64,000 bases of DNA from Rhodovulum sulfidophilum DSM 1374 (GTDB lineage: Bacteria > Pseudomonadota > Alphaproteobacteria > Rhodobacterales > Rhodobacteraceae). Below the pieces are notes generated by a model that saw only the letters and a list, made by a program, of their open reading frames with translations, did not search any database and was not told the origin of the DNA. Positions 35,827 through 56,089 of this stretch are shown here, in pieces. Where the stretch lies: positions 901,501 to 965,500 of the forward strand of contig NZ_CP015418.1 in NCBI RefSeq assembly GCF_001633165.1, written 5' to 3'. The position numbers and the translations under genes are program-made. The number at the start of each line of letters is the position of its first letter. The first letter of the stretch is position 1.

Positions 35827-37356
35827 TCAGTCGCCGGAGGGGGTGCTGCCGGGACCGTCCTTGTCGCCATCGGGTTCGAGTTCGGCGCGGAGCGCCTTGC
35901 GGCGGATCTTGCCGAAGCCGTCGCGGGGCAGCGTGCGGCGCAGTTCGAAGCGCTTGGGGACCTCGGCCGGGGCCAGATGGGCGGCGCAGAAATCGTGCAG
36001 CGCCGCCGGATCGGGGCTGAAGCCCTCGGCGGGCACGATGCAGGCCAGCACGCGCTGGCCCCAGTCGCGGTCCGAGATGCCCAGCACCACTGCGTCGACC
36101 ACCTGCGGATGACGCAGCAATTCGGCCTCAACCACCTCGGGATGGACCTTGACCCCGCCGGTATTGATCACGTCATCCGACCGGCCCGCCAGATAGAGAT
36201 AACCCTCGTCGTCGAGCCAGCCCATGTCGCCGATGCTCTGGAACCCGTCCGCATCGCGGCGGGGCCGGGGCGCCTCGGGGCCCAGATAGCGGCTGCGGCC
36301 GGACAGGTCCTCGGGCCGCATGAAGATCTCGCCGCGCGCGCGGGGACCCAGCCGCGCGCCGTCCGGGCCATAGATCCGGATCTCGGTTTCGAAGCCGCGT
36401 CCGACCGTGCCCTTGCGCGCCAGCCATTCGGGGCCGGCGAGGACGGTCTGCCCGGTATTCTCGCCCGAGCCGTACATCTCGAAGACGCGGTCAGGCCCCA
36501 GCCGCTCGATCCAGGCGGACTTGAGCCAGGCCGGGCAGGGCGCGCCGGTGTGATAGAAGGCATGCAGGCTGTCGAGGCGCGCGCCGGTGGCCTCGAGCCG
36601 GTCGAGCATCCGCACCATCATCGTCGGCACCACCATGGCAAAGCCGACCCGGAAGCGGTCGATTGCCAGCAGCGCCCGGTCGGCGTCGAACTTCTCCATC
36701 AGGATCAGCCGGTTGCCCTCGAACAGCCCGTTCTGCGCCCAGGTCTGCGGCGCGTTATGGGCAAGCGCCCCGGCCACCAGCTGCACCTGATCGGCGCGAA
36801 AGCCCAGCGCAGGTGCGATCCGGCCCCAGCTGGCGCCGGGGATGCGCGTATAGGGCCGGTCATCGGCCATCATCTTGGGCAGCCCGGTCGAGCCGCCCGA
36901 GAGCACGATCTTGCCCGGGCAGGAGACCGCGTCCGCGACCGGCGTGGCGGGCGCGAAGGCGGCCAGCCGTTCCAACCGGGCACGGTCGAGATCGCCGGAA
37001 CCGGGGGCCTCGGAGATCCAGAGCCGGGCGCCGATCCGGGCCTTCAGCGCGGCGGCAAGCTCGGGCGTCAGATGCGGGTCGGCGACCAGCGTCGTCGCCC
37101 CCAGCCGCCAGACCGCCAGCGAGGTGGCCAGATGGGTGGGCGTGTTGGCCAGCCCGATCCCCACCACATCGCCCCGGCCCACTCCTTGCGCCGCAAGAAC
37201 ATGCGCGATGCGGTCGACCGAAGCGTCAAGCGCGTCCCAGCCGATCGCCTCTTCCTGCCCGTCGGCCGCCAGGAACCGGACGGCCTCGGCCGCGCCGCGC
37301 TCGCGCGCGAGTTGGCGCAGACGGGCGCCGAAGGTGATGGGCCGGGGGTCTGTCAC
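35827..37356 (-). CDS. AMP-dependent acyl-CoA synthetase/ligase
   Basis: The 509-residue ANL-superfamily ligase has the P-loop IVLSGGSTGLPK (about 149-160), the adenine motif EMYGSGENTG and GDMGWLDDEGYLYLAGRSDD. The C-terminal catalytic lysine is in GFGKIRRK. It activates a carboxylic acid to its CoA thioester via an acyl-adenylate. It is the last gene of the operon DHDPS lyase - TRAP P, Q, M - DUF3830 - ligase, and its start overlaps the DUF3830 stop by four bases. It probably activates the solute imported by TRAP system 2 or a product of it. Confidence 0.9.
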   Translation of the reverse strand: MTDPRPITFGARLRQLARERGAAEAVRFLAADGQEEAIGWDALDASVDRIAHVLAAQGVGRGDVVGIGLANTPTHLATSLAVWRLGATTLVADPHLTPELAAALKARIGARLWISEAPGSGDLDRARLERLAAFAPATPVADAVSCPGKIVLSGGSTGLPKMMADDRPYTRIPGASWGRIAPALGFRADQVQLVAGALAHNAPQTWAQNGLFEGNRLILMEKFDADRALLAIDRFRVGFAMVVPTMMVRMLDRLEATGARLDSLHAFYHTGAPCPAWLKSAWIERLGPDRVFEMYGSGENTGQTVLAGPEWLARKGTVGRGFETEIRIYGPDGARLGPRARGEIFMRPEDLSGRSRYLGPEAPRPRRDADGFQSIGDMGWLDDEGYLYLAGRSDDVINTGGVKVHPEVVEAELLRHPQVVDAVVLGISDRDWGQRVLACIVPAEGFSPDPAALHDFCAAHLAPAEVPKRFELRRTLPRDGFGKIRRKALRAELEPDGDKDGPGSTPSGD

Positions 37357-37769
37357 GCGTCGACCTCTTCGAACAGGATCTCCTGGGCGCCTTCATAGAG
37401 CACCCTGGGCCCCAGCTCCGCCAGCTTGTCGGTATTCGAGGTCAGGGTGATGAAATGGTTGCCGGCAAGCTGGCCGAGCTTCGAGGCGAAATGCACGCCG
37501 CCATAGGCCAGCAGGATCTCGGTCTCGCTGATGCCGCCGGGATAGAGGATGATCTGGCCGGGGGCGGGGTAGCTGGTATGGTTCTCGTAGCCGAGGCCGA
37601 AATCGGTTTCGCCCAGCGGAATCCAGACGCCCTCGCCCGACCAGCGGACATGCACGACCTTGCCCTTGAACGGCATCTTCGCGCGGAAGGCGGCGACGGT
37701 CTGCGGCGCGGCATCCTCGAAACGGGCGTCGAATTCGATCCCGGCAATGGTGACCTTGAGTTTCGTCAT
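37353..37769 (-). CDS. DUF3830 family cyclophilin-like protein
   Basis: This 138-residue cytosolic protein has the DUF3830 pattern: KAKVTIAGI-like start, W-x-G-E-G-x-W-I-P and YPAPGQIILYPGG. The family has a cyclophilin-like beta-barrel fold and recurs beside TRAP transporters, hydantoinases and racemases; no function is established. The ATG follows AAGGAG. It lies between dctM and the CoA ligase, overlapping the latter, which argues for a dedicated role in the same pathway. Confidence 0.85.
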   Translation of the reverse strand: MTKLKVTIAGIEFDARFEDAAPQTVAAFRAKMPFKGKVVHVRWSGEGVWIPLGETDFGLGYENHTSYPAPGQIILYPGGISETEILLAYGGVHFASKLGQLAGNHFITLTSNTDKLAELGPRVLYEGAQEILFEEVDA

Positions 37770-37780
37770 GGCAGTCTCCT

Positions 37781-39067
37781 TCAGTCGATGAGGCCGGCAA
37801 GGCGCGGCAGGAAAAGCGGAAGATCGGGAAGCAGCGTCACCGCGATCAGGACGGCGAACAGCCCGGCCAGCGGCAGCGCGAGCTTCTTCGCGACCGACAG
37901 AACCGGCCGCCCGGCGACGCTGGAGGCGACGAAAAGCGAGACGCCATAGGGCGGCGTCACCGTGCCGATGGCGCAGTTCAGGATGATCAGCAGCGAGAAG
38001 TGGATCGGGTCCACCCCCATCTGTGCGGCGATGGGCGACAAGACCGGCACGATGATCAGGATCGCGGCGATGGTCTCGAGGAACATGCCCACGAACAGGA
38101 ACAGGACATTCGCGATCAGCAGGAACATCAGCTGTGAAGACGACACGCCGGCGATCCAGTTGCCCAGCAGCTGCGGCACGTTGGCATTGGCGATCAGCCA
38201 GGAAAAGACGCTGGCGGTGCCGATGATCAGCATCACCGCCGAAGACAGCGACACGGTTCTCAGGATCAGGTCGGGCAGGCGCTTCAGATCGAGATCGCGG
38301 TAGAGGAAGGCGCCGACAAGCAGACCGTAAAAGCCCGAGACGGCCGCCGCCTCGGTCGGGGTGAAGACCCCGCCGAGAATGCCGCCGAGGATCAGCACCG
38401 GCATGCCTGCCGCGGGCAGCGCGGCCCAGCCGGTGCGGAGCAGCCGGGCGAAGGTGAAGGGCTCGGCCTCGCGATAGGCCGGGCCGCCCCTCTTCGCGTG
38501 GACATAGGCGATGATCATCAGGATCGCGATGCACATCAGCCCCGGCACCACGCCCGACAGGAACAGCGCCCCGATCGAGACATTCGACACGACGGCGAGG
38601 ATCACCATGGTCAGGCTGGGCGGGATCACCTGGGCGATGGACCCGGCCGAGGCGATGATCGCGGCGCCGAAATCGACATCATAGCCGCGGCGCCGCAGCT
38701 GCGGCTGCATGATCGCCGAAATCGCCGCGGTGTCGGCCGAGCCCGAGCCCGAGATCGCGGCAAGCCCGGCGGCGGCCAGGCAGGAGACCTGCAAAAGGCT
38801 GCCGACCACCCAGCCGATGACGGCCGAGGCGAACTCGACGATCCGGCGCGAGATCCCGCCCGCATCCATGATCACGCCCGCGAAGACGAAGAACGGGATC
38901 GACATCAGGGTGAAGGTGTTCAGCCCGGCAAAGACCCTCTGGCTGACGATGGCGACGGGCACGTCGGTCGTGGTCACCAGTGCCAGCACCGCCGAGGCGC
39001 CAAGCACGAAGACGACCGGCACGCCCGCCAGCAGCAGCAGGACGAAGGCAACGGCAATCACCAGCAT
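37781..39067 (-). CDS. TRAP transporter large permease (DctM family), system 2
   Basis: The 428-residue polytopic protein starts MLVIAVAFVLLLLAGVPVVFVLG and has the conserved ISGSGSADTAAISAIM segment. It is the Na+-coupled import channel for the solute delivered by the binding protein at 39653-40627. Its start overlaps the DctQ stop by one base (TGATG). Confidence 0.95.
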   Translation of the reverse strand: MLVIAVAFVLLLLAGVPVVFVLGASAVLALVTTTDVPVAIVSQRVFAGLNTFTLMSIPFFVFAGVIMDAGGISRRIVEFASAVIGWVVGSLLQVSCLAAAGLAAISGSGSADTAAISAIMQPQLRRRGYDVDFGAAIIASAGSIAQVIPPSLTMVILAVVSNVSIGALFLSGVVPGLMCIAILMIIAYVHAKRGGPAYREAEPFTFARLLRTGWAALPAAGMPVLILGGILGGVFTPTEAAAVSGFYGLLVGAFLYRDLDLKRLPDLILRTVSLSSAVMLIIGTASVFSWLIANANVPQLLGNWIAGVSSSQLMFLLIANVLFLFVGMFLETIAAILIIVPVLSPIAAQMGVDPIHFSLLIILNCAIGTVTPPYGVSLFVASSVAGRPVLSVAKKLALPLAGLFAVLIAVTLLPDLPLFLPRLAGLID

Positions 39068-39582
39068 CAGATCGCCTCCTCTTCATGATCGAGGCTTGGC
39101 GGCGGGAACGGGTCGTTCCAGCGCAGGATCACCGACAGCAGCAGTTCCAGCGCGATATAGGCCGCGCCCACCGGCAGGCAGAGATACATCCAGGCCATCG
39201 GCATCTGCAGCGAAGGCGAGGTCTGGAACGCGCCCATGCGCAGCAGCGGCTGGCTGCCCCAGGCAAGAACGGCAAGGAAGGCGGCCGAGACAAGGGCGAT
39301 GAAGATCAGCGCGGCCCGCGCCCAGGGCAGCGAAAACCGCGCGGGCACCATGTCGATGGCGACATGCTGGCCGCGGGCCATGGCGACGCCTGCCCCCAGC
39401 AGCACCAGCCAGATCTGGCAGAAGGTCGCGATCTCGGAGGCCTGGGCGATGGAATAGTTGAAGATGTAGCGCCCGGCGATCTGGATCAGGACGGCCGCCA
39501 TCATCACCGAGAACAACAGGATCACCACGGCCGAAACGAGCCGGCGCAGCATGAGAAGGGCGCGTTCTATCAGTGGCAACAT
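39067..39582 (-). CDS. TRAP transporter small permease (DctQ family), system 2
   Basis: The 171-residue four-helix subunit has the family pattern RYIFNYSIAQASEIATFCQIWLVLLGAG followed by GQHVAIDMVPARF. It lies between dctP and dctM of system 2. The resemblance to the DctQ of system 3 (RYVFNYSIAWSEETATF) suggests that the two systems are related by duplication or common family. Confidence 0.93.
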   Translation of the reverse strand: MLPLIERALLMLRRLVSAVVILLFSVMMAAVLIQIAGRYIFNYSIAQASEIATFCQIWLVLLGAGVAMARGQHVAIDMVPARFSLPWARAALIFIALVSAAFLAVLAWGSQPLLRMGAFQTSPSLQMPMAWMYLCLPVGAAYIALELLLSVILRWNDPFPPPSLDHEEEAI

Positions 39583-39652
39583 GGCGGTCCTCCGGGAAAA
39601 ACGGGAAAAGGCCCGGCCGCAGAGGGCGGCCGGGAGGTCAGGGAGGTCGGGC

Positions 39653-40627
39653 TCAGTTCACCGCCTGCAGCAGCTCGAACAGCTCTTTCTGCGCATCGGT
39701 CCGGATGTATTTGTCCTGGATCGGCGCTGCGGCGGCGCGGAAGGGGGCATCGTCGGGATGCGAGATGTTGACGCCCACCGCCTCGAGATCGGCAAAGCGC
39801 GCGGCGTCGCTGTCGCGATAGGTCTTGCGCTGGAACCGGCCCGCCTCGGTCCCGGCCTCGTCCAGCGCGGCCTGCACATCGGCGGGCAGCGCCTGATAGG
39901 CGGCCTCGCCCATGATCACCGGCGCCACCAGCTCGAGCCAGCCGATCACCGCCCAGTCGGGGGACACCTCGTAGAATTTCTTGGCGTAGTAATTGGTGTT
40001 CGCGGCCTCGGCCCCGTCGACCACGCCGGTCTCGAGCGCGCCGTAAAGCTCGGTATAGGCCAGCGGCGTCGGGTTGGCGCCGAAGGCCTTGAAGGTGTCG
40101 ACATGGGCCGGGTTCTGCATGGTGCGGATCTTCAGCCCCGCCAGGTCGTCCAGGGTCTCGATCGGGGTCTTGGTCATGATGTGACGGGTGCCCGCCGAGA
40201 AGAAGCTGACGAGGTGAAAGCCCTTCTGGTTCAGGATCTCCTGCGCCTTGGCGATGACCGCCGGATCGCTCAGCGCGCGGTCCATCTGGTCGGCATCCCT
40301 GAACAGGAAGGGCAGGCTGAACACGGCGAGGTCGGGCACGAAATTGGCCAGCGTGTCGTTCGCGGTCACGGCCAGGCCGACCGTGCCCATCTGGGTGCCC
40401 TGGATGCTTTCCATCTCGTCGCCGAGCTGGGCATTGTCGAAGACCTGGATGGTGGCCTTGCCGCCGGTCCTGTCTTCGAGGATCTCGGCCATCTTGCGCA
40501 TGCCGACGCCATAGGGCTCTTCGGCATTGGCGTTATGGCTGGCCTTCAGCACGATCTCCTGGGCGAAGGCGGGCAGCGCGGCCGAGGCGCCGAGGGCCAA
40601 GCAGAGCGCGAGATTGGTCAGTTTCAT
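39653..40627 (-). CDS. TRAP transporter solute-binding protein (DctP family), system 2
   Basis: The 324-residue periplasmic receptor has a signal peptide (to about residue 22, AFA-QEI). GLKIRTMQNPAHVDTF carries the substrate-binding arginine, and TELYGALETGVVDGAEAANTNY is the conserved helix. Close similarity in these motifs to the receptor of system 3 suggests related ligands. It lies between a DHDPS-family lyase and dctQ on the same strand. Confidence 0.94.
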   Translation of the reverse strand: MKLTNLALCLALGASAALPAFAQEIVLKASHNANAEEPYGVGMRKMAEILEDRTGGKATIQVFDNAQLGDEMESIQGTQMGTVGLAVTANDTLANFVPDLAVFSLPFLFRDADQMDRALSDPAVIAKAQEILNQKGFHLVSFFSAGTRHIMTKTPIETLDDLAGLKIRTMQNPAHVDTFKAFGANPTPLAYTELYGALETGVVDGAEAANTNYYAKKFYEVSPDWAVIGWLELVAPVIMGEAAYQALPADVQAALDEAGTEAGRFQRKTYRDSDAARFADLEAVGVNISHPDDAPFRAAAAPIQDKYIRTDAQKELFELLQAVN

Positions 40628-40694
40628 GGGGCGTTTCCTTTCGGGGTCTCTCTGTTGGGACGGATGTTCGAGCGGGGCTTCTGGCGGCCCCGTC

Positions 40695-41576
40695 TCAGGC
40701 TTCCGCCAGAAGCCCGAGATCGTCGAGGATGCGGCGCAGCTCGTGCTGCCTGTCCTGCGGCAGCGGCAGCCTGGGCGGGCGCGGGTCGCCCATCGGCCGC
40801 CCGATCATCTTCATCGCCGCCTTGGTGGCCGAGACGTAGAGATCGCCCGCCAGCGCGTTGATCAGCGGCAGGCATTTCACGTAGATCTCGCGGCCCTTGG
40901 CGGCATCGCCGTCGAGGGTTTCGGTGAACATCTGGGCCGAGAGCCGCGGCGAGATATTGGCCATGACCGAGCTGTAGCCCTGGGCCCCGCAGCGGTAGCT
41001 TTCCCAAGGGTAATAGCCCGCGAAGACCGTCAGCCGGTCGCCGCACAGCTCGATCAGCTCGGTCACCCGGTGGACAGTCTTCGAGGTGTCCTTGATCGCG
41101 ACGATATTGTCGATTTCCGACAGCCGCGCGACCAGTGGCGCGGTCAGATCGACATTGGCGGTGAAGGGGTTGTTATACAGCATGACCGGGATCGAGAGCG
41201 CTTCGGCCACCCGGCGGAAATGGGTGAACAGCTCGTCATCGGTCGGCGAGGAATAATAGGGCGGCACCAGCATCACCCCGTCGGCGCCCAGGGCTTCGGC
41301 GTCCCTGGACAGCGCGATTGCCTCTTCGGTCCATTCGGCGGCGGTGCCGATCAGGACCGGCACCCGGCCCGCGGCCTGTCCGATCACCGCCTCGGCGATC
41401 TGCCCCCGTTCCTCGCGGGTCAGCGACAGGAACTCGCCGGTCGAGCCCAGCGGCACCAGCCCGTGCGCGCCCTCGGCGATCTGCCATTCGGTATAGCTGC
41501 GCATGGCGGGCAGGTCGATCCGACCCTCGTCGTCAAAGGCCGTGACGCAGACCGTGTAGCTTCCCCTGAATTTCAT
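40695..41576 (-). CDS. DHDPS/N-acetylneuraminate lyase family enzyme
   Basis: The 293-residue class I aldolase-like protein keeps the full family active site: GSTGEF phosphate/carboxylate loop at 44-49, Tyr134 in YNNP, and Schiff-base Lys162 in VAIKDTS. The family joins or splits pyruvate (or another 2-oxoacid) and an aldehyde, or dehydrates sugar acids. It is the first gene of the TRAP-2/DUF3830/ligase operon. It is therefore unlikely to be the housekeeping dapA and more likely a catabolic lyase. The ATG at 41576 was chosen; another in-frame ATG at 41588 has no ribosome site. Confidence 0.87.
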   Translation of the reverse strand: MKFRGSYTVCVTAFDDEGRIDLPAMRSYTEWQIAEGAHGLVPLGSTGEFLSLTREERGQIAEAVIGQAAGRVPVLIGTAAEWTEEAIALSRDAEALGADGVMLVPPYYSSPTDDELFTHFRRVAEALSIPVMLYNNPFTANVDLTAPLVARLSEIDNIVAIKDTSKTVHRVTELIELCGDRLTVFAGYYPWESYRCGAQGYSSVMANISPRLSAQMFTETLDGDAAKGREIYVKCLPLINALAGDLYVSATKAAMKMIGRPMGDPRPPRLPLPQDRQHELRRILDDLGLLAEA

Positions 41577-41617
41577 CCCGAGTCCCATTTTAGATCGTAA
41601 ACTGTTTCTTGCAGAAT

Positions 41618-41628
41618 TGATCTGATCA
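41618..41628. promoter_or_regulatory. Palindrome TGATC-T-GATCA in the divergent promoter region
   Basis: A perfect 11-bp palindrome lies in AT-rich DNA between the TRAP-2 operon and the tautomerase/acyl-CoA dehydrogenase unit. A second TGATCAT occurs near 42087, just before the acyl-CoA dehydrogenase gene. The nearby FCD-type GntR regulator could use such sites; no footprint data are implied. Confidence 0.4.
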
Positions 41629-41693: not shown

Positions 41694-42059
41694 ATGCCCT
41701 TCATCGAAGTCTTCGACCGCGAACCCGTGCAGGAAACACGGGCAGTTGCCACCTCCCTGATGACCGATGGTCTCTGCGCAGCATTCGGAATCAAGCCGGA
41801 AATCGTCACCGTCTATTATTTTTCGACCCCCGAAAATTCCTATGGCCATGCCGGAAAATATGGCGAAAACGCTGAAATATTCCGCATTTTCGCAAAGGTT
41901 CATGCCTTCCCCAGATCGGCCGAGGCCAAGGCCGAGGCGGCGCGCGCCCTGACCGGGGCGCTTTGCCGGGCCTATGGCGCGCAACCCAGGGACGTCATCG
42001 TCTACTTCTTCGACCGCGATCCGGGCGACGCCTTCCATGGCGGTGTCGCTTCGGCTTGA
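41694..42059 (+). CDS. Tautomerase superfamily protein (Pro-1 type)
   Basis: The 121-residue protein starts MPFIEVFDRE, leaving the catalytic amino-terminal proline after Met removal. The second half (RDVIVYFFDRDPGD) repeats the beta-strand pattern of 4-oxalocrotonate tautomerase/CHMI folds. It would isomerise an enol or unsaturated keto acid. The ATG has AGGAG upstream. It is the first gene of the rightward unit with acyl-CoA dehydrogenase, MaoC and GntR genes, which suggests an enolic intermediate in the pathway. Confidence 0.82.
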   Translation: MPFIEVFDREPVQETRAVATSLMTDGLCAAFGIKPEIVTVYYFSTPENSYGHAGKYGENAEIFRIFAKVHAFPRSAEAKAEAARALTGALCRAYGAQPRDVIVYFFDRDPGDAFHGGVASA

Positions 42060-42126: not shown

Positions 42127-43269
42127 TTGGATCAGTTCTTCACCGAAGAGCAGCGCATGGTGCGCGACACCGCGCGCAAGCTCGGCGATCAGGTGATCGC
42201 GCCCGCCGCCGCCGCCATCGACCGCGACGACGTCTTTCCCCGCGCCATCTACGAAACCCTTGCCGAGCAGGGGCTGTTCGGCGTCGCCCTGCCCGAAGAG
42301 GCGGGGGGTGTCGGGCTCGACGCCATGGCTGCCTGCATCGTGATGGAGGAAATCGCGCGCGGCTCGGGCGCGGTCGGCAATGCCTTCGCGATTCCGGTCG
42401 AAGCGGCGCTGTTCCTGAACCACCATGGCAGCGAAGAGACCCGCAAATGGATCCCCGGCATCGTCGAGGGCCGGGTCATTCCCGCCACCGCCGTCACCGA
42501 ACCCGATTGCGGCTCGGACGTTGCCGCGATGAAGACCACGGCCCGGCGCGACGGCGACGACTATGTCATCAAGGGCACCAAGGCCTGGGTCACCTTCGGC
42601 GAGATCGCCGATGTCGTCATGGTCTTCGCCAAGACCGATCCCGAGGCCGGGCATCGCGGCATTTCCTGCATCCTGGTCGAGACCGACCGTCCCGGCGTCC
42701 ATCGTGGCAAGTCCGAGGATTTGCTTGGGATGCATGGCCTTGCCGATTGCATGCTCAGCTTTGACGAGGTGCGGGTGCCGGTCGCGAACCGCATCGGGCC
42801 CGAGCATGGGGCCTTCAAGATGGCGATGGAGAATTTCAACTTCTCGCGGCTGATGATGTCCTCGATGGCGCTGGGCATGGCCCAGGCCGCGATGGAGGAT
42901 GCCGTCGCCTATGCCAATGACCGGCGGCAGTTCGGCAAGCCGATCTTCGATTTCCAGGCGATCCAGTTCATGATCGCCGACATGTCGAAGGACATCGCCG
43001 CCGCGCGCCTGCTGATCCATCACGCGGCAAAGCTTTACGATGCGGGCCACCCCATCGCGCTGGAGGCCGCGCAGGCCAAGCTGTTCACCACCGACATGGC
43101 GCAGGTCCATATCTCGAACGCGCTGCAGATCCATGGGGGCAACGGCTATTCCCGCGAGTTCCGGATCGAGCGTCTGTTCCGCGACGTGCGGCTCAGCCAG
43201 ATCTACGAGGGCACCAACCAGATCCAGCGCATGATCATCGCCCGCCAGGTGCAGAAGACCTGCGCATGA
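42127..43269 (+). CDS. Acyl-CoA dehydrogenase
   Basis: The 380-residue FAD enzyme has ATAVTEPDCGSD (FAD/substrate loop), the RRQFGKPIFDFQAIQF helix, and canonical catalytic Glu361 in IYEGTNQIQRM. It forms a 2,3-enoyl-CoA from an acyl-CoA. The start is TTG at 42127, the only start with a proper ribosome site (AAAGGAG, 7-base spacing); family alignment also begins at LDQFFTEEQ. Its stop overlaps the MaoC start by four bases, so dehydrogenation and hydration are coupled. Confidence 0.92.
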   Translation: MDQFFTEEQRMVRDTARKLGDQVIAPAAAAIDRDDVFPRAIYETLAEQGLFGVALPEEAGGVGLDAMAACIVMEEIARGSGAVGNAFAIPVEAALFLNHHGSEETRKWIPGIVEGRVIPATAVTEPDCGSDVAAMKTTARRDGDDYVIKGTKAWVTFGEIADVVMVFAKTDPEAGHRGISCILVETDRPGVHRGKSEDLLGMHGLADCMLSFDEVRVPVANRIGPEHGAFKMAMENFNFSRLMMSSMALGMAQAAMEDAVAYANDRRQFGKPIFDFQAIQFMIADMSKDIAAARLLIHHAAKLYDAGHPIALEAAQAKLFTTDMAQVHISNALQIHGGNGYSREFRIERLFRDVRLSQIYEGTNQIQRMIIARQVQKTCA

Positions 43270-43709: not shown

Positions 43710-43712
43710 GCC

Positions 43713-49011: not shown

Positions 49012-49773
49012 GTGCAGTCGAAAAACGCCGCTTCTCCTGAAATCGGACTGGCATTCTGCCTTGCGGGGCGTGCCGAGGCCGTACTTCTCGCCAAAGGTGC
49101 AGGATTCGATTTCGCGGTGATGGACATGGAGCATGGGCCCATCGGTCTGTCCGAGCTGGGGCAGGCGGCCGCGGTCGGCCAGGCGGCCGGATTTCCGGTC
49201 CATGCCAGGGTCACGGGGCCGGGCTCGCCCGATCTGGCGCGGGCGCTCGATTGCGGCGCGGCGGGGGTGATCGTGCCCCATGTCGACAGCGCCGACGAGG
49301 CCCGCAGGGTGGTCCGGGCCTGCCGCTTCGCGCCGGTCGGACGGCGGGCGCTGCCGGGGCCGCTGCCGGTTGCCGATTATGTGCCGCTGCCCGCCGATGC
49401 GCTGGTCGGGGCGGCCGGGGGCGGGAAGGTGATGGCGATGATCGAAAGCGCCGAGGCGCTGGCCGCGGTCGAGGAAATCGCCGCCGTCCCCGGGCTCGAT
49501 GCGCTGATCGTCGGGACCAACGATCTAGCCGACGGGATGGGGCTGCGCGGGCGGGTCGGTCACCCCGAAATCCAGGCCGCCTTCGGCCGGATCGCGGCGG
49601 CCGCACGGGCTCGCGGGCTGGCCTTTGGGGCGATGGGGCTGCCGCCCGAGCTGGTCGAAAGCCATGCGCTGGCGCTGGGCGCAAGTATTCTCGTGGCGAC
49701 CAACGAGACCAATCTCATCGTCGAGGGCGGCGCCGCCCTGCTGGCCGCCTTGCGCGGCCCGGCCGGGTCATGA
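49012..49773 (+). CDS. HpcH/HpaI family class II aldolase
   Basis: The 253-residue TIM-barrel enzyme has VMDMEHGP (active-site His), HARV (Arg), GAAGVIVPHVDSADEA, MIESAEA (metal Glu) and VGTNDLADGMG (metal Asp). Relatives cleave 4-hydroxy-2-oxo acids to pyruvate (or oxaloacetate) and an aldehyde, using Mg2+ or Co2+. The GTG at 49012 follows AAGGGA; the earlier frame is non-family sequence. It diverges from TRAP-3 and is convergent with the LysR gene, overlapping it by six bases. Confidence 0.87.
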   Translation: MQSKNAASPEIGLAFCLAGRAEAVLLAKGAGFDFAVMDMEHGPIGLSELGQAAAVGQAAGFPVHARVTGPGSPDLARALDCGAAGVIVPHVDSADEARRVVRACRFAPVGRRALPGPLPVADYVPLPADALVGAAGGGKVMAMIESAEALAAVEEIAAVPGLDALIVGTNDLADGMGLRGRVGHPEIQAAFGRIAAAARARGLAFGAMGLPPELVESHALALGASILVATNETNLIVEGGAALLAALRGPAGS

Positions 49774-50694
49774 CGGATCGCGCCGGGCCTCGGCCCGCAC
49801 CTCGGCGATCTGGGCGCGCACCTTCTCGGCGAAGGCGGTGATCAGGCGGCGGGTCTGGCGCGAGGTGGTCTTGGCGCGCGAGGTTGCGGCCGTCAGCTCG
49901 AAGCTCAGCGCGGGTTCGTAGGCGCGCACCACCAGCCCCGGGCGCAGCACGGTATGGGCGGATAACTCGTCGATCAGGGTCACGCCGCAGCCTTCGCGCA
50001 CCACACGCGCGGCGGCATTCATGAAGCGGGTCTCGATCGCGGGACTGTAGACATGGCCGCTGGCGCGGAAGCTGTCGGCGATCATCAGCCCGATCCGGTT
50101 CGAGACCTGCGGACCGACCATCTGCCGCCCGATCAGGTCGCGCGGCGTCACCGCTTCGAGCCGGGCCAGCGGGTCGTCGGCGGGGCACAGGCAGACCGCG
50201 CGCAGTTCGACCAGGGTTTCGTAATCGAGCGCCTGGCGCTCATAGGCGGCGATGACGAAGGCGACATCGGCCAGCCCGTTCTCGACCACCTGCAGCACCC
50301 CGTCCAGCGGCCGGGTTTCCAGCGAGATCTGCACCTTGGGATAGGCGCCCGCGTAATCGGCGATGACGCCGGGCAGAACCGCCTCGGACAGTTCCGCGGT
50401 CGAGGCGATCCGGATCCGGCCGATCCGCCCGCGCCTGAGATCGGCGGCGCGCTGGTTCACCGCGTCGCGCAGCAGGAACAGGGGTTCCGCCTCTTCCAGC
50501 AGGATCAGCGCCTCTTCGGTCGGCACCAGCCGGTTCGAGACCCGCTCGAACAGCGGAAAGCCCAGAACCGTCTCGATATGGCGGATGGTGTTCGAGACCG
50601 AGGGCTGGGACATGCCCAGCCGTTCGGCGGCGCCCACGGTGGTGCGATACTGCACCACCGCACGCAGGATCTCGAGCTGTCGCAGGTTCAGCAT
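49768..50694 (-). CDS. LysR family transcriptional regulator
   Basis: The 308-residue protein has the N-terminal winged helix (MLNLRQLEILRAVVQYRTTVGAAERLGMSQPSVSNTIRHIE) and a periplasmic-binding-like effector domain (about 90-295). It follows the CoA-transferase operon on the same strand, 29 bases after the EthD-like gene, and probably belongs to it. It is convergent with the HpcH-type aldolase. Its likely effector is a pathway intermediate. Confidence 0.92.
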   Translation of the reverse strand: MLNLRQLEILRAVVQYRTTVGAAERLGMSQPSVSNTIRHIETVLGFPLFERVSNRLVPTEEALILLEEAEPLFLLRDAVNQRAADLRRGRIGRIRIASTAELSEAVLPGVIADYAGAYPKVQISLETRPLDGVLQVVENGLADVAFVIAAYERQALDYETLVELRAVCLCPADDPLARLEAVTPRDLIGRQMVGPQVSNRIGLMIADSFRASGHVYSPAIETRFMNAAARVVREGCGVTLIDELSAHTVLRPGLVVRAYEPALSFELTAATSRAKTTSRQTRRLITAFAEKVRAQIAEVRAEARRDPS

Positions 50695-50723
50695 CGGTCG
50701 GGCGGTCCCTCCTGCGGGCACGC

Positions 50724-51014
50724 TCAGCTTTTCGTCAGACGCACCCGCCGGAAGTTGCGGATCTTGTCGGTGAACGGCCCGAAGCCCTTGATAGCGTCGA
50801 ACTCGGGGGTTTCATAGGCTTCGGGGCCGGTAATCGTGTAGATCGCGACATGGCGCGGCCCGCCTTCGATGCATTTCTCGCGCCGGGCCTCCAGCCAGCC
50901 GGGGCAGGCGAGGATCTGGGGCAGGTGGGTGTTGTCGTACCAGTCGTCGAAGGCGGCCTCTTCCTCGGGGTCGATATCGACGAAGACCATGTGGGTCTGG
51001 CGGGGCTCAGTCAT
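50724..51014 (-). CDS. EthD-like dimeric alpha/beta-barrel protein
   Basis: The 96-residue protein has the pattern FDDWYDNTHLPQILACPGW, typical of small ferredoxin-fold EthD/DUF4286-like proteins. Related dimeric barrels act as accessory enzymes or isomerases in degradation pathways. It overlaps the upstream DHDPS paralogue by eight bases. The reaction is unknown. Confidence 0.78.
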   Translation of the reverse strand: MTEPRQTHMVFVDIDPEEEAAFDDWYDNTHLPQILACPGWLEARREKCIEGGPRHVAIYTITGPEAYETPEFDAIKGFGPFTDKIRNFRRVRLTKS

Positions 51015-51933
51015 CTCCGGGCTCCAGGCAGGGGGCAAGCGCCGCGGCCAGACGCTCGGCTTCGGCCGGGTCGATGGGCGGCGTGGGGGCGCGGCAGGCC
51101 GGGCTGTCGATGCGGCCGAGCCGGGCGAGGCAGGCCTTGAGCCGGGCGGCGGCCAGATGGCCGGGCCGGGCATAGATCGCCCTGGCCAGCGGATAGAGCT
51201 TGCGGTGGATCGCCAGCGCGGCGTCGGTCTCGCCCGCGCGCACATGGGTGTCGAGCGCCACGATCAGGTCGGGCACAAGCGCGGCGAGGCTGACCGCGGA
51301 CCCGTCGCTGCCAAGCTGAAAACAGGCGAAGAGATGTTCGTCGCCCGAGGCCATCACCGCCACATCGGGCCGAAGCGCGCGGGTCTGGCGCAGCGTGTCC
51401 TCATAGGCTCGGGTCTCCCACGAGCCTTCCTTGATGCCGACCACCGCCTCGATGTCCAGAAGGGCGGCCAGCGTGTCGGGCGCGTAATGCAGCCCGCCCG
51501 AGCCGACCGAACCCTGAAACAGGTAGACCGGTCCTTCGGCGGCCTCGGCGATGCCCTTGTGATGGGCGAGGATGGCGCGCGGATCGGCGCCGAGCGCCCA
51601 GGAGAAGGGGGCGAAGACCATGATCCCGTCGGCCCCGGCCGCCCGCGCGGCGCGGGCATCGGCGGCGGCTTCGGCGGTCGCCTCGGCGCTGACCGCCGCC
51701 AGCACCCGTTTGGCGGGGGCGATGGTCTTGGCATGGCGCACCACGGTCGCGGCCTCGTCGCGGGTCAGGAAGATCCCTTCGCCCGCATGGCCGTTCAGCA
51801 GCAGGCCGTCGAGCCCTTCTGTCGCCAGAACGGCCGAGAAATGCGCCTCGAGGCTGTCGAGATCCAGCGCGCCGTCCGCGCGCATCGGGCAGATGGTGGC
51901 GGCATAGAGCCCGCCATGGGGATGCGCGGCCAT
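51007..51933 (-). CDS. DHDPS-family protein, paralogue lacking the YNNP tyrosine (copy 1)
   Basis: The 308-residue TIM-barrel protein has a NGHAGEG loop in place of GTTGE and Schiff-base Lys168 in VGIKEGSWE. The second-shell Tyr of the YNNP motif is replaced by a YLFQGS segment (Phe139-Gln140). It retains imine chemistry but not the usual proton relay. It is coupled to copy 2 by a TGATG overlap. It may form a hetero-oligomer with copy 2 or act on a different substrate. Confidence 0.83.
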   Translation of the reverse strand: MAAHPHGGLYAATICPMRADGALDLDSLEAHFSAVLATEGLDGLLLNGHAGEGIFLTRDEAATVVRHAKTIAPAKRVLAAVSAEATAEAAADARAARAAGADGIMVFAPFSWALGADPRAILAHHKGIAEAAEGPVYLFQGSVGSGGLHYAPDTLAALLDIEAVVGIKEGSWETRAYEDTLRQTRALRPDVAVMASGDEHLFACFQLGSDGSAVSLAALVPDLIVALDTHVRAGETDAALAIHRKLYPLARAIYARPGHLAAARLKACLARLGRIDSPACRAPTPPIDPAEAERLAAALAPCLEPGDD

Positions 51934-52862
51934 CACAGCAACTCCGCCTCGATCAGCGCCCGGCGGACGCCTTCGACGACGGCCCCCGATGGCGGCAGGA
52001 GCGGCAGGCGCGGGGTTGCGCATTTGATCAGGCCCATCATCTTCAGCCCGTCCTTCATCCGGGTATGCATGTCGACGACCGGCGCCGGGCCGTAGATCGC
52101 GCGCACCACCGGGTAGAGCCGGTCGTTGATCGCGCGCATCCGCGCCAGGTCCTGCGCCTCGGAGGCCCGCCACAGCTCGGCCAGCAGGCCCGGCGTCAGC
52201 GAGGCGAGCCCCGACAGGATGCCGTCGCCGCCCAGCGCCAGTTGCGGCAAGAACCAGTGGAAGTTCGAGGGCAGGATCGCGACATCGGGTGCCGCGGCCT
52301 TCACCGCGCGGCGGTTCTCGTCATAGGCCAGCATCGTGGCCGAGCCTTCCTTGATCGCGACGATGCCGGGGATCTGCGCGATCTCGGCCAGCGCCTCCGT
52401 CGAATAGCCGAAGCCCGAGGCGATCGGGAACTGGAAGACCGAGATCGGCATCGCCAGTTCGCGGGCGAGCTTTTCCATGAAGGCCACCGGCGCCTTCGTT
52501 GCGGCATTGCCGCCGCCCAGCGCCTCGGGCGGGAAGATCACGGCGACATCGGCCCCGGCCTCGCGGGCGGCCTCGGCCTGCATGACGGCGTCCGGATAGC
52601 CGGTGGGCACCACGCCCGCCAGCAGCAGCCGGTCCTTGCCGATCTGATCGCGGGTCCGGCGGATCACCTCGTCGCGCTCGGCCCCGGTCAGGGCCGTCGC
52701 CTCGCCCGCATGGCCGTTGACGAAGACGCAATCGGTCGTCTCGGGCCGGGTGCAATGCTCCAGGACGGCGGCGTAGCCTTCCCAGTCGATGGCGCCGGTC
52801 TCGTCGAAGGGCAGAACGGTCGCGACCGTGATGCCGCGCAGGTCTTTTCCGGTCAGGCTCAT
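51933..52862 (-). CDS. DHDPS-family protein, paralogue with Phe at the YNNP tyrosine (copy 2)
   Basis: The 309-residue protein has NGHAGEA in the carboxylate loop and Lys171 in VAIKEGSAT. VFQFP stands in place of the YNNP motif, so Phe143 occupies the Tyr position (28 residues before Lys, as in the canonical homologue at 40695). It shares the GHAGE loop and the FQ motif with copy 1, so they are tandem paralogues. The operon places both after two hydratase subunits, which suggests cleavage of a hydroxylated intermediate. Confidence 0.85.
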   Translation of the reverse strand: MSLTGKDLRGITVATVLPFDETGAIDWEGYAAVLEHCTRPETTDCVFVNGHAGEATALTGAERDEVIRRTRDQIGKDRLLLAGVVPTGYPDAVMQAEAAREAGADVAVIFPPEALGGGNAATKAPVAFMEKLARELAMPISVFQFPIASGFGYSTEALAEIAQIPGIVAIKEGSATMLAYDENRRAVKAAAPDVAILPSNFHWFLPQLALGGDGILSGLASLTPGLLAELWRASEAQDLARMRAINDRLYPVVRAIYGPAPVVDMHTRMKDGLKMMGLIKCATPRLPLLPPSGAVVEGVRRALIEAELL

Positions 52863-53296
52863 GCAGTCACCTTCTTCTTGCGGGGGAATTTCAGGGAGGC
52901 GTCGACCTTCAGGACCTCGGTGCCTTCCTCGTTCCGGGCCGAGGCCTGCCAGTCGACGGTGCGGTTTTCCTCGTCCTTGGCGCTGATCCAGATCTCGAAG
53001 GTCAGGGTGTCGCCGTAACGGACCGCGCCGGTGAACCAGAAGCTGTCGCGGATCGAGACGCCAAGCGTGCCCACCAGTTCGGCGGTCAGGACCGAGGTGC
53101 AGATGCCCGCGACCAGGATGCCGGGGGCGAGACGCTCGCCGAAGCGGGTTCCCGAGGCATAATCCTCGTCGACATGGACCGGGCCGAAATCGCCGGTGGC
53201 GGCGATATACATGGCGCCATCGGCCTCGGTGACGGTCTTGGTGACGCTGATGCGGTCGCCCACGCTCAGCTCGTCGATCTGGCGGATGTCGTACAT
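52859..53296 (-). CDS. MaoC family hydratase subunit with intact Asp/His dyad
   Basis: The 145-residue hot-dog protein has the classical ATGDFGPVHVDEDYA motif with Asp36 and His41. It would hydrate a 2-enoyl-CoA. Its start is 6 bases after the stop of a second, degenerate hot-dog gene, and its stop overlaps the DHDPS copy 2 start by four bases. It is likely the catalytic half of a two-subunit hydratase. Confidence 0.88.
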   Translation of the reverse strand: MYDIRQIDELSVGDRISVTKTVTEADGAMYIAATGDFGPVHVDEDYASGTRFGERLAPGILVAGICTSVLTAELVGTLGVSIRDSFWFTGAVRYGDTLTFEIWISAKDEENRTVDWQASARNEEGTEVLKVDASLKFPRKKKVTA

Positions 53297-53302
53297 CTGG
53301 GC

Positions 53303-53692
53303 TCAGCTTTCCCTTGGGACGAGCACCGCCTCGCCGGTCACGACGGTCTGGCCGTCGATCTCGCCCGCGAGATGGCAGATCAGCGACTTGCCCTCGGGGC
53401 CGCCGCTGGTGGCGGTGGCGGCAAGCGTTTCGCCGACCGTCACGGCACGGTGGAACGAGAAGGAAATCGCGCCGATCCGGTAGTCGGGACCCGCAAGCCG
53501 CGACAGCGCGGTCGAGAACAGCGCGCCCGCCGCCAGCTCGAAGACGGCCATGTCGGGCAGGCCCATGGCCCGTGCCTTCACCCTGTCGACATGGGCCGCC
53601 CCCAGATTGCCCGAGATGCCGGTGAAGAAACCCTGTTCGGCCACGGTCAGGGTCTTGCGGAAGGTGACCGACTGGCCCCGTTCGATGGTCAT
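53303..53692 (-). CDS. Hot-dog protein with degenerate MaoC motif
   Basis: The 129-residue protein has the hydratase motif as SGNLGAAHVD: the catalytic Asp is Asn29 while His34 remains. It is shorter than its neighbour and aligns along the hot-dog fold (ISFSFHRAVTVGE). Heteromeric R-hydratases often pair one active and one inactive hot-dog chain, so it may be the partner of the 145-residue protein. The ATG at 53692 has GGAGAG just before it; ATG 53704 is the alternative. Confidence 0.8.
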   Translation of the reverse strand: MTIERGQSVTFRKTLTVAEQGFFTGISGNLGAAHVDRVKARAMGLPDMAVFELAAGALFSTALSRLAGPDYRIGAISFSFHRAVTVGETLAATATSGGPEGKSLICHLAGEIDGQTVVTGEAVLVPRES

Positions 53693-53708
53693 CGCGCTCT
53701 CCATCCGC

Positions 53709-54869
53709 TCAGAGGGTCAGGCCGCGCTTGATCACCGAGCGGGCGATCAGCATGCGGTGGATTTCCGAGGTGCCGTCATAGATCCGGGTCACCCGCGCAT
53801 CGCGATAGATCCGTTCCAGCGGCAGTTCCTTGGTGAAGCCGTAGCCGCCGAAGGTCTGGATGCCGCGATCGGCGACCCGGCCCAGCATCTCCGAGGCCTG
53901 CACCTTGACCATCGAGACCTTGTCGCGCGGGTCCAGCCCCCGGTCGATCTCCCAGGCGGTGTTCAGCACCATCATCCGGGTCGCGAAGATTTCCATCGCG
54001 CTGTCGGCGATCATCTGCTGGACCATCTGGAACTCGCCGATGGGCTGGCCGAACTGGTTCCGCGTGGCGGCATGCTCGCGCATCATTTCCAACACGCGCG
54101 AGGCCATGCCGACCGCCCGCGCGCCGATATGGCCAAGGCGGATGCCGCCGACATTGGCCATCATCACCCGAAAGCCCTCGCCGACCTCGCCGAGGATCTG
54201 CTCTTTCGGGACGCGCACGTCGTCGAAGGTCAGCTCGGCATGGCCATAGCCGCGATGGCCCATCATCGGCTGGTTTCGGGTGACCTTGAAGCCCGGCATG
54301 TCCTTGTCGACGATCAGAAGCGTGATGCCGCCGCGCGCGCGTTTCTCGGGGTCGGTCACCGCCATGACGATGATGTAATCGGCAATGTCGCCATCCGAGA
54401 TGAAATGCTTGGTGCCGTTCAGCACCCAGTGATCGCCCTCCGGCACCGCCCTCGTCCTGATCGCGGCCGCGTCCGAGCCCGCGCCCGGTTCGGTGATCGC
54501 CATGGCGCAGATCTTCTCGCCCCTGACGGTGGGATAAAGATATTTGTCGCGCAGATCGCCCTTGAACTGTTCGAGCATCGGATAGACCTGCCCGAAGATC
54601 CGCCGGATCAGCGCGTCCGAGGTCTGGCCCAGCTGTTCCTCGACAAGGCACATGTCGAGAATGCCCAGCCCGCCGCCGCCAACCTCTTCGGACATGTTCA
54701 GCGCGTAAAATCCCAGCGCCTGGGCCTCGGCCCGGACGGCGGCCAGCTTTTCGGGCGGGATTTGGGCATTGGCCTCGGTCTCCTGCTCCAGCGGCTGAAC
54801 CTTCTCGCGCACGAAGCGGCCTACCGCCTCGGTCACCATCTTCATCTCGTCGGAAATCGTGAAATCCAT
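53709..54869 (-). CDS. Acyl-CoA dehydrogenase with Asp at the catalytic-base position
   Basis: The 386-residue FAD enzyme has AMAITEPGAGSD, RNQFGQPIGEFQMVQQM and FGGYGF. The catalytic loop reads IYDGTSEIHRM, with Asp365 where most family members have Glu. Asp is seen in some ACAD10/11-like members, so activity is plausible but may be altered. It follows the CaiB/BaiF gene by five bases, so its substrate is likely the CoA ester made by that transferase. Confidence 0.9.
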   Translation of the reverse strand: MDFTISDEMKMVTEAVGRFVREKVQPLEQETEANAQIPPEKLAAVRAEAQALGFYALNMSEEVGGGGLGILDMCLVEEQLGQTSDALIRRIFGQVYPMLEQFKGDLRDKYLYPTVRGEKICAMAITEPGAGSDAAAIRTRAVPEGDHWVLNGTKHFISDGDIADYIIVMAVTDPEKRARGGITLLIVDKDMPGFKVTRNQPMMGHRGYGHAELTFDDVRVPKEQILGEVGEGFRVMMANVGGIRLGHIGARAVGMASRVLEMMREHAATRNQFGQPIGEFQMVQQMIADSAMEIFATRMMVLNTAWEIDRGLDPRDKVSMVKVQASEMLGRVADRGIQTFGGYGFTKELPLERIYRDARVTRIYDGTSEIHRMLIARSVIKRGLTL

Positions 54870-54874
54870 GTGCC

Positions 54875-56089
54875 TTACCCCCGCATCCGGTCGGTCTGTG
54901 CCGCGGCGCCCGCCTCGATGAGGGCGTCGATCTCGTCCTGGCCAAGGCCCGCCTCGGCCAGCAGCTCGCGGCTGTGTTGGCCCAGCGCGGGCGGCGTCAT
55001 CCGGATGGCGGGGGCCTCGCCGTCATAGCGGACCGGATGGGCCAGCATCACCATCGGCGCGCCGCCCCGGGTCTCGGCCTCGACGAAGGCGCCCAGATGT
55101 TTGACCTGCGGGTTCTCGGGCAGGGCGTCGTAATCCTCGACCGGGGTGTGCCAGACGCCCGCCGCCTCCAGCAGCGGCAGCGCCTCGGCCATGGTCAGGC
55201 GGGCCATGCCCTGCTGCACCAGCATCGCGACCTCGCCGCGCCTGGAAAAGCCGTCCTCCTCGGTGAAGGCGGCCAGCTCGGGCAGGTCCAGCGGACCGGC
55301 CAGATCGGCGGGCTTGCACATCGAGATCATGACATGCCCGTCCCTGACCGCATGGATCCCGTAGGGCGCCGGGCTGAACCAGTTGGCAAGCCCCGCCTCG
55401 CCGCGCGGGCCCTTGCGGTTGGCGCCGTTCATCCAGGCGGTGATCGACTCGCCCTGCAGATCGAGCGCGGCCTGCAGCATGTTGACCTCGACCTTGCGGG
55501 CGGTGCCTGTGCGCTCGCGCTCGAACAGGGCCGCGACGATGCCGCCTGCGGTCAGCGCCGCGGCATGGTGGTCGATCGGGACCGTGCCGATGGCGACCGG
55601 CCCGCCTTCGAGGCTGCCGGTATGGGCGGCAAGCCCGGTCATCGCCTGCAGCAGCACGTCCTGGCCGGGGCGTTTGGCATAGGGGCCGTCGGCGCCATAG
55701 CCGGTGGTCGCGGCATAGATGATGCGGGGATTGATCCGGCGCAGCTCGGCCTCGCCCAGCCCGAGCTTGTCCATAGTGCCGGGGCGGAAATTCTCCATCA
55801 CCACATCGGCGGTCGCGATCAGCCGCTTGACTGCATCCAGCGCTGCGGGCGCCTTCAGGTCCAGCGCGAGCGAGCGCTTGTTGCGGCCGGTGGTGATGTG
55901 GTTGACGCTGGTCTCGTCGACGAAGCGGTTGGCGACGGCCCAGTTGCGCTGGAAGGCGCCGCCGATGGGCTCGATGGCGATCACGTCGGCGCCCATATCG
56001 GCCAGATGCTGCGCCGCCGCAGGCCCCGAGAGAAAATGGTTGAAACTGAGAATCCGAATGCCGTCGAGCGCGCCCATATCTTTCCCCAT
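54875..56089 (-). CDS. CaiB/BaiF family CoA-transferase (class III)
   Basis: The 404-residue family III CoA-transferase has LSGPAAAQHLADMGADVIAIEP near the N-terminus and NEN-like VVMENFRPG. The probable catalytic Asp173 is in VPIDHHAAAL, and GSPAPY-like SPAPYGIHAV is present. It moves CoA between acids via an aspartyl anhydride. As the first gene of the leftward operon it would activate the pathway substrate, using a CoA donor such as a pathway product. A second in-frame ATG (MGALDG) lies four codons in. Confidence 0.92.
   Translation of the reverse strand: MGKDMGALDGIRILSFNHFLSGPAAAQHLADMGADVIAIEPIGGAFQRNWAVANRFVDETSVNHITTGRNKRSLALDLKAPAALDAVKRLIATADVVMENFRPGTMDKLGLGEAELRRINPRIIYAATTGYGADGPYAKRPGQDVLLQAMTGLAAHTGSLEGGPVAIGTVPIDHHAAALTAGGIVAALFERERTGTARKVEVNMLQAALDLQGESITAWMNGANRKGPRGEAGLANWFSPAPYGIHAVRDGHVMISMCKPADLAGPLDLPELAAFTEEDGFSRRGEVAMLVQQGMARLTMAEALPLLEAAGVWHTPVEDYDALPENPQVKHLGAFVEAETRGGAPMVMLAHPVRYDGEAPAIRMTPPALGQHSRELLAEAGLGQDEIDALIEAGAAAQTDRMRG

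Follow-up and report, generated by a model that had tools for sequence, protein, structure and literature searches.

The 64,000-nt stretch of DNA analysed here (the window) belongs to the 4.35-Mb genome of Rhodovulum sulfidophilum DSM 1374 and contains, at 35827..56089, a catabolic block of 23 genes delimited by a codon-usage gene call and family scans (Table 1). At the left end, the genes for an acyl-coenzyme A (CoA) ligase of the adenosine monophosphate (AMP)-forming type, a DUF3830 protein, TRAP system 1, and DHDPS1 are situated on the minus strand, followed on the plus strand by those for a tautomerase-like protein, acyl-CoA dehydrogenase 1 (ACAD1), MaoC1, and a GntR regulator. The D-hydantoinase and TRAP system 2 are again encoded on the minus strand. 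In the right part, an HpcH-type aldolase gene on the plus strand precedes LysR, EthD-like, DHDPS3, DHDPS2, MaoC2, MaoC3, acyl-CoA dehydrogenase 2 (ACAD2), and CaiB, all on the minus strand. Hereafter, the ligase-to-GntR half (units A and B) is termed arm A/B, the hydantoinase with TRAP system 2 unit C, and the CaiB half (unit D) arm D. All families named in a first-pass annotation of the sequence are recovered in this interval, and the GntR and LysR regulators, absent from its list, are present besides. Neither tRNA genes nor Rfam matches above the gathering score are found across the window.

Table 1. Genes of the catabolic block, their positions in the window, and the supporting family evidence.
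Gene product	Position	Strand	Evidence
AMP-forming acyl-CoA ligase, predicted activation in arm A/B	35827..37356	-	PF00501 132.9 bits, PF13193
DUF3830 protein	37353..37769	-	PF12903 105.6 bits
TRAP large permease DctM, system 1	37781..39067	-	PF06808; TIGR00786 above cut-off
TRAP small permease DctQ, system 1	39067..39552	-	PF04290
TRAP binding protein DctP, system 1	39653..40627	-	PF03480 247.2 bits; TIGR00787 above cut-off
DHDPS1, canonical active site	40695..41576	-	PF00701 239.6 bits
Tautomerase-superfamily-like protein, Pro right after start Met	41694..42059	+	weak PF01361/PF14552
Acyl-CoA dehydrogenase 1 (ACAD1), TTG start inferred	42127..43269	+	PF00441/PF02771/PF02770
MaoC1 hydratase	43266..43709	+	PF01575 78.8 bits
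GntR/FCD regulator adjoining arm A/B	43713..44411	+	PF00392, PF07729
D-hydantoinase/dihydropyrimidinase	44444..45856	-	TIGR02033 517.4 bits (cut-off 393.25); PRK13404 739.6 (cut-off 647)
TRAP binding protein DctP, system 2	45937..46902	-	PF03480 242.9 bits
TRAP large permease DctM, system 2	46939..48219	-	PF06808
TRAP small permease DctQ, system 2	48216..48689	-	PF04290
HpcH/HpaI-type aldolase	49012..49773	+	PF03328 103.5 bits
LysR regulator adjoining arm D	49768..50694	-	PF03466, PF00126
EthD-like dimeric alpha+beta-barrel protein	50724..51014	-	predicted model, predicted local distance difference test (pLDDT) 95.2; fold matches
DHDPS3, NGHAGE variant	51007..51936	-	PF00701 123 bits
DHDPS2, NGHAGE variant, Phe-Gln replacing Tyr-Asn	51933..52862	-	PF00701 100.6 bits
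MaoC2, hydratase subunit, D/H motif intact	52859..53296	-	PF01575 65.7 bits
MaoC3, hydratase-like subunit, degenerate motif (Asp to Asn)	53303..53704	-	PF01575 27.6 bits (cut-off 27)
Acyl-CoA dehydrogenase 2 (ACAD2)	53709..54869	-	PF00441/PF02770
CaiB-type (family III) CoA-transferase	54875..56089	-	PF02515 309.9 bits

The 23-gene block forms a real unit. DHDPS1 and DHDPS2, searched in 101 genomes including the source genome, are each found in seven, six of which are common to both, namely the source genome, three congeneric genomes, and two from other genera. The unshared matches are DHDPS2 in G099 at 34% identity only and DHDPS1 in G029 at 50%. Three genomes of the same genus (G004, G014, and G015) carry the whole set of 23 genes together and in unchanged order. 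G054, of another genus, also has the complete set, with two blocks exchanged, the hydantoinase-to-CaiB part standing before the ligase-to-GntR part. A reduced version in a stretch of G055 comprises DUF3830, TRAP, MaoC1, DHDPS1, tautomerase, ACAD1, a type I CoA-transferase, DHDPS2, and GntR. Within the genus, DHDPS1 and DHDPS2 are present in 4 of 16 genomes; with E values to 1e-150, 5 of the 16 have the flanking P-type ATPase and 3 have the PfkB-DUF2090 gene of the left side, at varying distances. Since the presence and distance of these flanking genes vary within the genus, the block is discrete and patchy. The swapped arrangement of G054 (L027/L028, G054:C62:72777-93184) is the order expected from a circular permutation, and the EthD-like gene of G004 (L032, G004:C23:52320-52605) matches in two pieces lying in different frames, which indicates a frameshift of either the gene or the assembly.

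The two arms are also conserved together. Co-occurrence in Rhodobacterales, proposed as a check by the first-pass annotation, is found: the arm-D marker MaoC2 (E to 1e-40) and the arm A/B marker ACAD1 (E to 1e-150) are found in the identical 5 of 390 genomes of the order, from three genera, and the block is collinear in relatives. In the phylum sample, MaoC2 and ACAD1 (1e-140) are each present in the identical 2 of 398 genomes; both samples include the source genome, are uncorrected for kinship, and rest on the best candidates scored per genome (four to five for ACAD1). The two CoA-ester arms are, as the same annotation described them, alike in composition without being copies, and they stay together in Rhodobacterales and beyond.

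Across a wider sample, the arm-D genes constitute a core cassette. A profile search with an alignment of four MaoC2 sequences over the contigs of 84,980 species retrieved 91 relatives, and the analysis was confined to the best 80 of them; genes were tallied at identities of at least 38% over at least 40% of the query in flanks of about 10 kb. The loci were picked by MaoC2, which is hence present in 80/80 by construction, and 30 of the 80 are from Bradyrhizobium. In these loci, CaiB, ACAD2, and MaoC3 are each found in 80, EthD-like in 79, DHDPS2 in 77, DHDPS3 in 67, and LysR in 48, and 79 of the loci have CaiB, ACAD2, MaoC3, and MaoC2 in collinear order on a single strand. The core cassette consists of CaiB, ACAD2, a degenerate and an active MaoC subunit, the EthD-like protein, and usually an NGHAGE-type DHDPS. 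The arm A/B genes are scored less often (MaoC1 47, ACAD1 42, DHDPS1 39, tautomerase 37, GntR 18, DUF3830 11, and ligase 7), as are those of unit C and HpcH (hydantoinase 33, HpcH 31, and TRAP-2 parts 25–27). At least two A/B markers occur in at least 44 of the 80 loci, a lower bound because several loci from Rhodobacterales lose arm A/B at the 10-kb flank limit. Of the loci from Bradyrhizobium, 29/30 contain ACAD1, the exception being situated at a contig end, and 30/30 contain DHDPS1. Among 49 of the 50 non-Bradyrhizobium genomes behind arm-D loci, 32 contain ACAD1 (E to 1e-120) and 17 contain none. By their record names, the hosts are Rhodobacterales, Hyphomicrobiales, Acetobacteraceae, Burkholderiales, one Pseudomonas, and a few metagenome bins, and are thus mostly alpha- and betaproteobacterial. 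The window's own thiolase (2710-3873, Pfam-confirmed), used as a single query (E to 1e-10), has no match in the 80 loci within about 10 kb on each side.

The modules differ in how closely they are bound to each other. In four loci (L086, L114, L124 from Chelativorans, and L127), TRAP-2, DUF6282, hydantoinase, CaiB, ACAD2, MaoC3, and MaoC2 form one same-strand array, which also holds DHDPS2, DHDPS3, EthD-like, and LysR. DUF3830 is included in all four, L124 among them, HpcH in L086, L114, and L127, and arm A/B in none; the genomes of L086 and L124 carry ACAD1 elsewhere, and those of L114 and L127 are without it. Because of these one-strand arrays, and because DHDPS3 accompanies 32 of 33 hydantoinase loci, unit C belongs with unit D. 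The hydantoinase with its TRAP system does lie between the arms, as initially described, and the description as a mere interposition gives way to membership of unit D. Units A and B constitute one divergent module, as they had been grouped, with the qualification that this module can be separate or reduced: a Thioclava strain carries the two arms on separate plasmids, arm A/B together with another DHDPS protein on p2 and arm D on p3, and in the G055 stretch DHDPS2 is situated inside the A/B cluster without the rest of D. The arm D of Thioclava p3 is accompanied by an AMP-ligase and a flavin adenine dinucleotide (FAD) oxidase, the best match of which is L-pipecolate oxidase at 274 of the required 600 bits. 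In L078 (Allorhizobium borbori), arm D is found with an amino-acid-type ABC importer in a genome without the A/B marker; L080 likewise contains arm D alone, its genome lacking this marker.

We tentatively read the block as one patchy catabolic unit with two parallel arms, possibly serving two related and probably nitrogen-containing carboxylic acids and ending in DHDPS-family lyases, a reading that falls somewhat short of probable. Each arm would import its own acid, which would be converted to a CoA thioester by the AMP-ligase or a type I transferase in arm A/B and by the CaiB transferase in arm D. The acyl-CoA dehydrogenase would then desaturate the thioester and a MaoC enzyme hydrate it, in arm D presumably by an active subunit paired with a degenerate one. 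Subsequently, Lys-Schiff-base lyases of the DHDPS family would cleave the product, replacing the dehydrogenase and thiolase of ordinary beta-oxidation and yielding pyruvate or another 2-oxo acid plus a smaller CoA ester or aldehyde. The hydantoinase would supply arm D, opening the ring of a cyclic amide or ureide precursor. Step order, subunit pairing, the lyase reaction, and precursor class are predicted from the gene content and sequence.

The transport genes bear on whether the arms act in parallel or in series. In 24 of 81 loci, arm A/B is accompanied by two family-3 binding proteins and one permease (with one ATPase in 21 and two ATPases in 3); in all 24, one binding protein adjoins MaoC1 and the other adjoins EthD or the permease. 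The paralogous binding proteins are 41–49% identical (12 pairs, of 26 loci with two or more), and the window itself contains two complete TRAP systems, one per arm. Paired receptors on one permease, together with the two TRAP systems, favour two related ligands in parallel over a linear path, and two receptors per permease suggest that two related substrates are handled in parallel. In an alignment of 20 binding proteins, the Arg at the carboxylate position is kept and the Asp at the ammonium position is kept in some only; we take these to be the residues that bind carboxylate and ammonium, respectively, in HisJ-type receptors. As the ammonium-binding Asp is kept in some only, no firm ligand class follows from the binding proteins, and searches of the DctP, DHDPS, and CaiB sequences in the PDB return general family matches only. 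A single linear pathway, in which arm D and the hydantoinase perform the upper steps, arm A/B degrades their product, and the receptors take up the substrate and a shared intermediate, is consistent with the co-occurrence of the arms, and with arm D alone in L078 and L080, as an upper route could be if other genes supply the lower part. However, the importer receptor and the regulator are separate for each arm, and the reduced A/B arm of G055 contains DHDPS2 and no other D gene in the stretch; we consider such a pathway unlikely.

In both arms, the residues of the predicted enzymes are largely conserved. The residue counts include the window, the 80 loci, and a small number of further mapped loci, proteins outside 0.75–1.35 of the window length being excluded, and the positions are assumed to be the catalytic ones of each family. 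DHDPS1 contains GSTGE, Tyr134, and Lys162 in 40/40 sequences; DHDPS2 contains NGHAGE, Phe143-Gln144, and Lys171 in 76/76; and DHDPS3 contains NGHAGE and Lys169 in 68/68, where the Tyr position is occupied by Tyr in 36 and by Phe in 32. All three pass the PF00701 cut-off of 22.1 and share the invariant Schiff-base Lys. Against the DapA model TIGR00674 (cut-off 206.15), DHDPS1 scores above (214.9) and DHDPS2 (102.9) and DHDPS3 (106.3) below; DHDPS1 is nevertheless not likely to be the biosynthetic DapA, because a stronger PF00701 match (301.2 bits) exists elsewhere in the genome. ACAD1 contains a catalytic-type Glu (YEGT) in 35/35, where ACAD2 contains Asp (YDGT) in 74/74. MaoC1 retains D35 and H40 in 46/46 and MaoC2 retains Asp36 and His41 in 78/78, and in MaoC3 Asn replaces Asp in 74/76 and Tyr replaces His in 53/76, the picture of a putative active subunit (MaoC2) with a degenerate partner (MaoC3), for which pairing is predicted. 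Furthermore, Asp173 of CaiB is present in 90/90 aligned rows, tandem copies included, Pro of the tautomerase-like protein in 38/38, and His30 of the EthD-like protein in 78/78. For the activation, desaturation, hydration, and retro-aldol cleavage suggested earlier, the residues typical of each family are kept, with Asp for Glu in ACAD2, and cleavage by DHDPS2 and DHDPS3 stays a prediction.

The ligase has BaiB as its best NCBIfam match at 304 bits, below the cut-off of 650 for this bile-acid model; a type I CoA-transferase (PF01144) replaces the AMP-ligase in many relatives. The profile of the tautomerase-like protein gives weak matches to many solved tautomerases and singles out none. The closest solved structure to the D-hydantoinase is 1nfg, the HpcH/HpaI-type aldolase lies below the HpaI, GarL, and RipC cut-offs, and DUF3830 has no credible solved relative by sequence. 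The EthD-like protein is so named only because it misses the TIGR02118 cut-off (23.8 against 30.5 bits) though its fold is alike.

Alternatively, DHDPS2 and DHDPS3 may act on a cyclic imine or 2-oxo acid as dehydratases or deaminases rather than as lyases, the arms ending without C-C cleavage by them. The DHDPS superfamily includes such enzymes, and this is in keeping with NGHAGE in place of the GTTGE of DapA (DHDPS3 68/68, DHDPS2 76/76), with the Phe of DHDPS2 that replaces the active-site Tyr in 76/76, and with DHDPS3 relatives that adjoin three-part FAD amine oxidases in other species. However, no aligned sequence departs from the Schiff-base Lys and DHDPS1 has a canonical active site, and we consider this alternative unlikely. 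Comparison of sequence and fold names mostly DHDPS, with 4-hydroxy-2-oxoglutarate aldolase and YagE lower down, and does not decide; in the fold searches with models of DHDPS2 and the EthD-like protein, the matches name a fold and not a reaction, and families missing from the matches are no evidence of absence. That two unrelated catabolic operons travel together by chance is highly improbable: the modules are separable, lie on two plasmids in Thioclava, and arm D is without the A/B marker in the 17 genomes mentioned above, but both markers occur in the same 5/390 genomes, paralogous receptors share one permease, and DHDPS2 sits inside the A/B cluster of G055.

Several points weigh against the two-arm reading itself. 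DHDPS2 and DHDPS3 lack the usual GTTGE and DHDPS2 lacks the active-site Tyr, so that their reaction may differ. A class I pyruvate aldolase requires a 2-oxo acid, which no gene of the block obviously makes, and amino-acid oxidases are found only in other clusters or versions. No 3-hydroxyacyl-CoA dehydrogenases or crotonases are detected by Pfam among the 23 genes, a test limited to these genes. In addition, 17/49 genomes contain arm D but not the arm A/B marker, the hydantoinase is absent from the examined stretches of 47/80 loci, and the two-arm pathway as such is a prediction from sequence.

Meanwhile, the gene neighbourhoods offer hints to the substrate. Relatives of DUF3830 matched 38 plasmid records, five regions of which were examined for neighbours: one contains allantoinase, a ring-opening amidohydrolase, and formamidase, two contain hydA, one contains amidohydrolase-family proteins, and the fifth, in Thalassospira, contains none of these; a sixth region, chosen on other grounds, has hydA. 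In Burkholderiales, a ureidoglycolate-lyase relative (PF04115, 207.8 bits) directly follows EthD in L088, L107, L110, L121, L129, and CP099604, and the hydantoinase is present in five of these six loci, L129 being the exception. In Paraburkholderia, Pantoea, and Acidisoma, a DHDPS3-like gene is accompanied by hydA, an amino-acid ABC importer, and a three-part FAD amine oxidase. The neighbours of the hydantoinase, DUF3830, ureidoglycolate-lyase, and DHDPS3-like kind all suggest nitrogen-containing cyclic amides or ureides, and none proves them; the cyclic-amide origin proposed at first is favoured by the hydantoinase, DUF3830, and ureidoglycolate-lyase neighbours only. As separate observations, a leaf Comamonadaceae plasmid (L049, CP099604.1 150000-190000) contains both arms, the allantoinase PuuE, two ureidoglycolate lyases, a second hydA, and several DHDPS genes, and L044, L045, and L050 contain a separate conserved DHDPS3-like/hydA/FAD amine oxidase/ABC cluster, with hydA a few genes away in L050 and DUF3830 in L044.

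A bolder version, which we regard as quite unlikely, would be a widespread, so far undescribed CoA route for cyclic ureides or amides and their acids, comprising ring opening by the hydantoinase, thioester formation from the resulting ureido/amido acid, desaturation, hydration at the nitrogen-bearing carbon, loss of urea or amine, and cleavage of the oxo acid left over by a new NGHAGE class of DHDPS, in place of carbamoylase and thiolase. Hydration at the nitrogen-bearing carbon followed by loss of urea or amine would generate a carbonyl and would thereby link the hydantoinase, the ureidoglycolate lyase, and the DHDPS; in Burkholderiales, the ureidoglycolate-lyase relative would release the urea or amine.

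Among known systems, steroid side-chain removal (ChsE, ChsH1/ChsH2, and Ltp2) comprises an acyl-CoA dehydrogenase, a two-subunit MaoC-type hydratase with one degenerate subunit, and an aldol cleavage that replaces the thiolase step. The block resembles this system without belonging to it, in the dehydrogenase, the predicted pair of MaoC subunits (Asp kept in MaoC2, 78/78; Asn in MaoC3, 74/76), and the predicted aldol-type end. However, Ltp2 is a thiolase-fold aldolase, whereas the block would use a DHDPS-type Schiff-base lyase within another gene set; family scans detect no thiolase domain among the 23 genes, and hence no Ltp2-type aldolase. Itaconate degradation (RipABC or Ich-Ccl) utilizes CoA activation, a MaoC-type hydratase, and a C-C lyase without a dehydrogenase step, and the Rip route is rejected at 70.7 against 340 bits for RipB and 24 against 375 for RipC. 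In the case of the carnitine/gamma-butyrobetaine route (caiABCD type), a CaiB-type transferase and an acyl-CoA dehydrogenase are shared, and an ACAD2 relative of 45.6% identity adjoins carnitine genes in Rhizobium. This route includes neither DHDPS nor the MaoC pair, and the scores to the crotonobetainyl-CoA dehydrogenase model PRK03354 are 186.5 and 168.5 bits against a cut-off of 540. Hydantoin utilisation places hydantoinase and carbamoylase (N-carbamoyl amino acid hydrolase) side by side; the block likewise has a true D-hydantoinase adjoining an importer, but no carbamoylase or amidase family is found among the 23 genes, so that these do not match the classic operon. HOGA1 and YagE/KDG aldolase share the DHDPS fold and Schiff-base Lys, as does NahE, another aldolase of the family; compared with HOGA1 and YagE/KDG aldolase, DHDPS2 and DHDPS3 contain NGHAGE and DHDPS2 also Phe-Gln.

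The iad genes of indole-3-acetate degradation occur in taxa overlapping those of the block. According to the available part of its description in Variovorax, this route activates a side-chain acid to its CoA ester with an AMP-forming ligase, a family also present in arm A/B, and further contains the Rieske-type oxygenase IadCDE, the thiolase IadG, and the alcohol dehydrogenase IadH (PMC12633357). On that partial description, the route is rejected, as its oxygenase, thiolase, and alcohol dehydrogenase families are absent from the block (PMC12633357). In the available parts of PMC9613470 and PMC10374108, the words dipicolinate and MaoC have no match. The families of the block are already known; in a literature search that covered few subscription papers, this combination and the two NGHAGE DHDPS subfamilies appear without description, in agreement with the earlier remark that no described pathway has this set.

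Outside the coding regions, TTGATCTGATCA at 41617-41628, between the divergent DHDPS1 and tautomerase genes, is a candidate GntR operator, of which the window has one exact copy and relatives have similar sites. No convincing operator common to both arms is found: TTGATCTGATCA has four matches at up to two mismatches, a number reached by 26 of 100 shuffles and hence at chance level. A MerR regulator and a heavy-metal P-type ATPase (56305-59076) flank the block; both adjoin it in G015, the ATPase lies about 8 kb off in G014, and an ATPase fragment only is found in G004. To the left, 26662-34871 contains a TRAP transporter, a mannitol-dehydrogenase family protein, a zinc alcohol dehydrogenase, RpiR, and the PfkB-DUF2090 fusion (five genes Pfam-tested), a second catabolic region, likely for polyol use. 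In addition, 3984-11494 is very GC-rich and contains two long genes on the minus strand, of 677 and 1826 codons.

If the two-arm reading is true, the route would be common to many alpha- and betaproteobacteria, with a Schiff-base lyase replacing the thiolase; among the best 80 of the 91 loci, 30 bear Bradyrhizobium names and 24 carry Rhodobacterales names. Functions would follow for DUF3830, an EthD-like family, and two uncharacterised DHDPS subfamilies, and the pair of receptors in each cluster would provide a direct and cheap route to the identity of the substrates.

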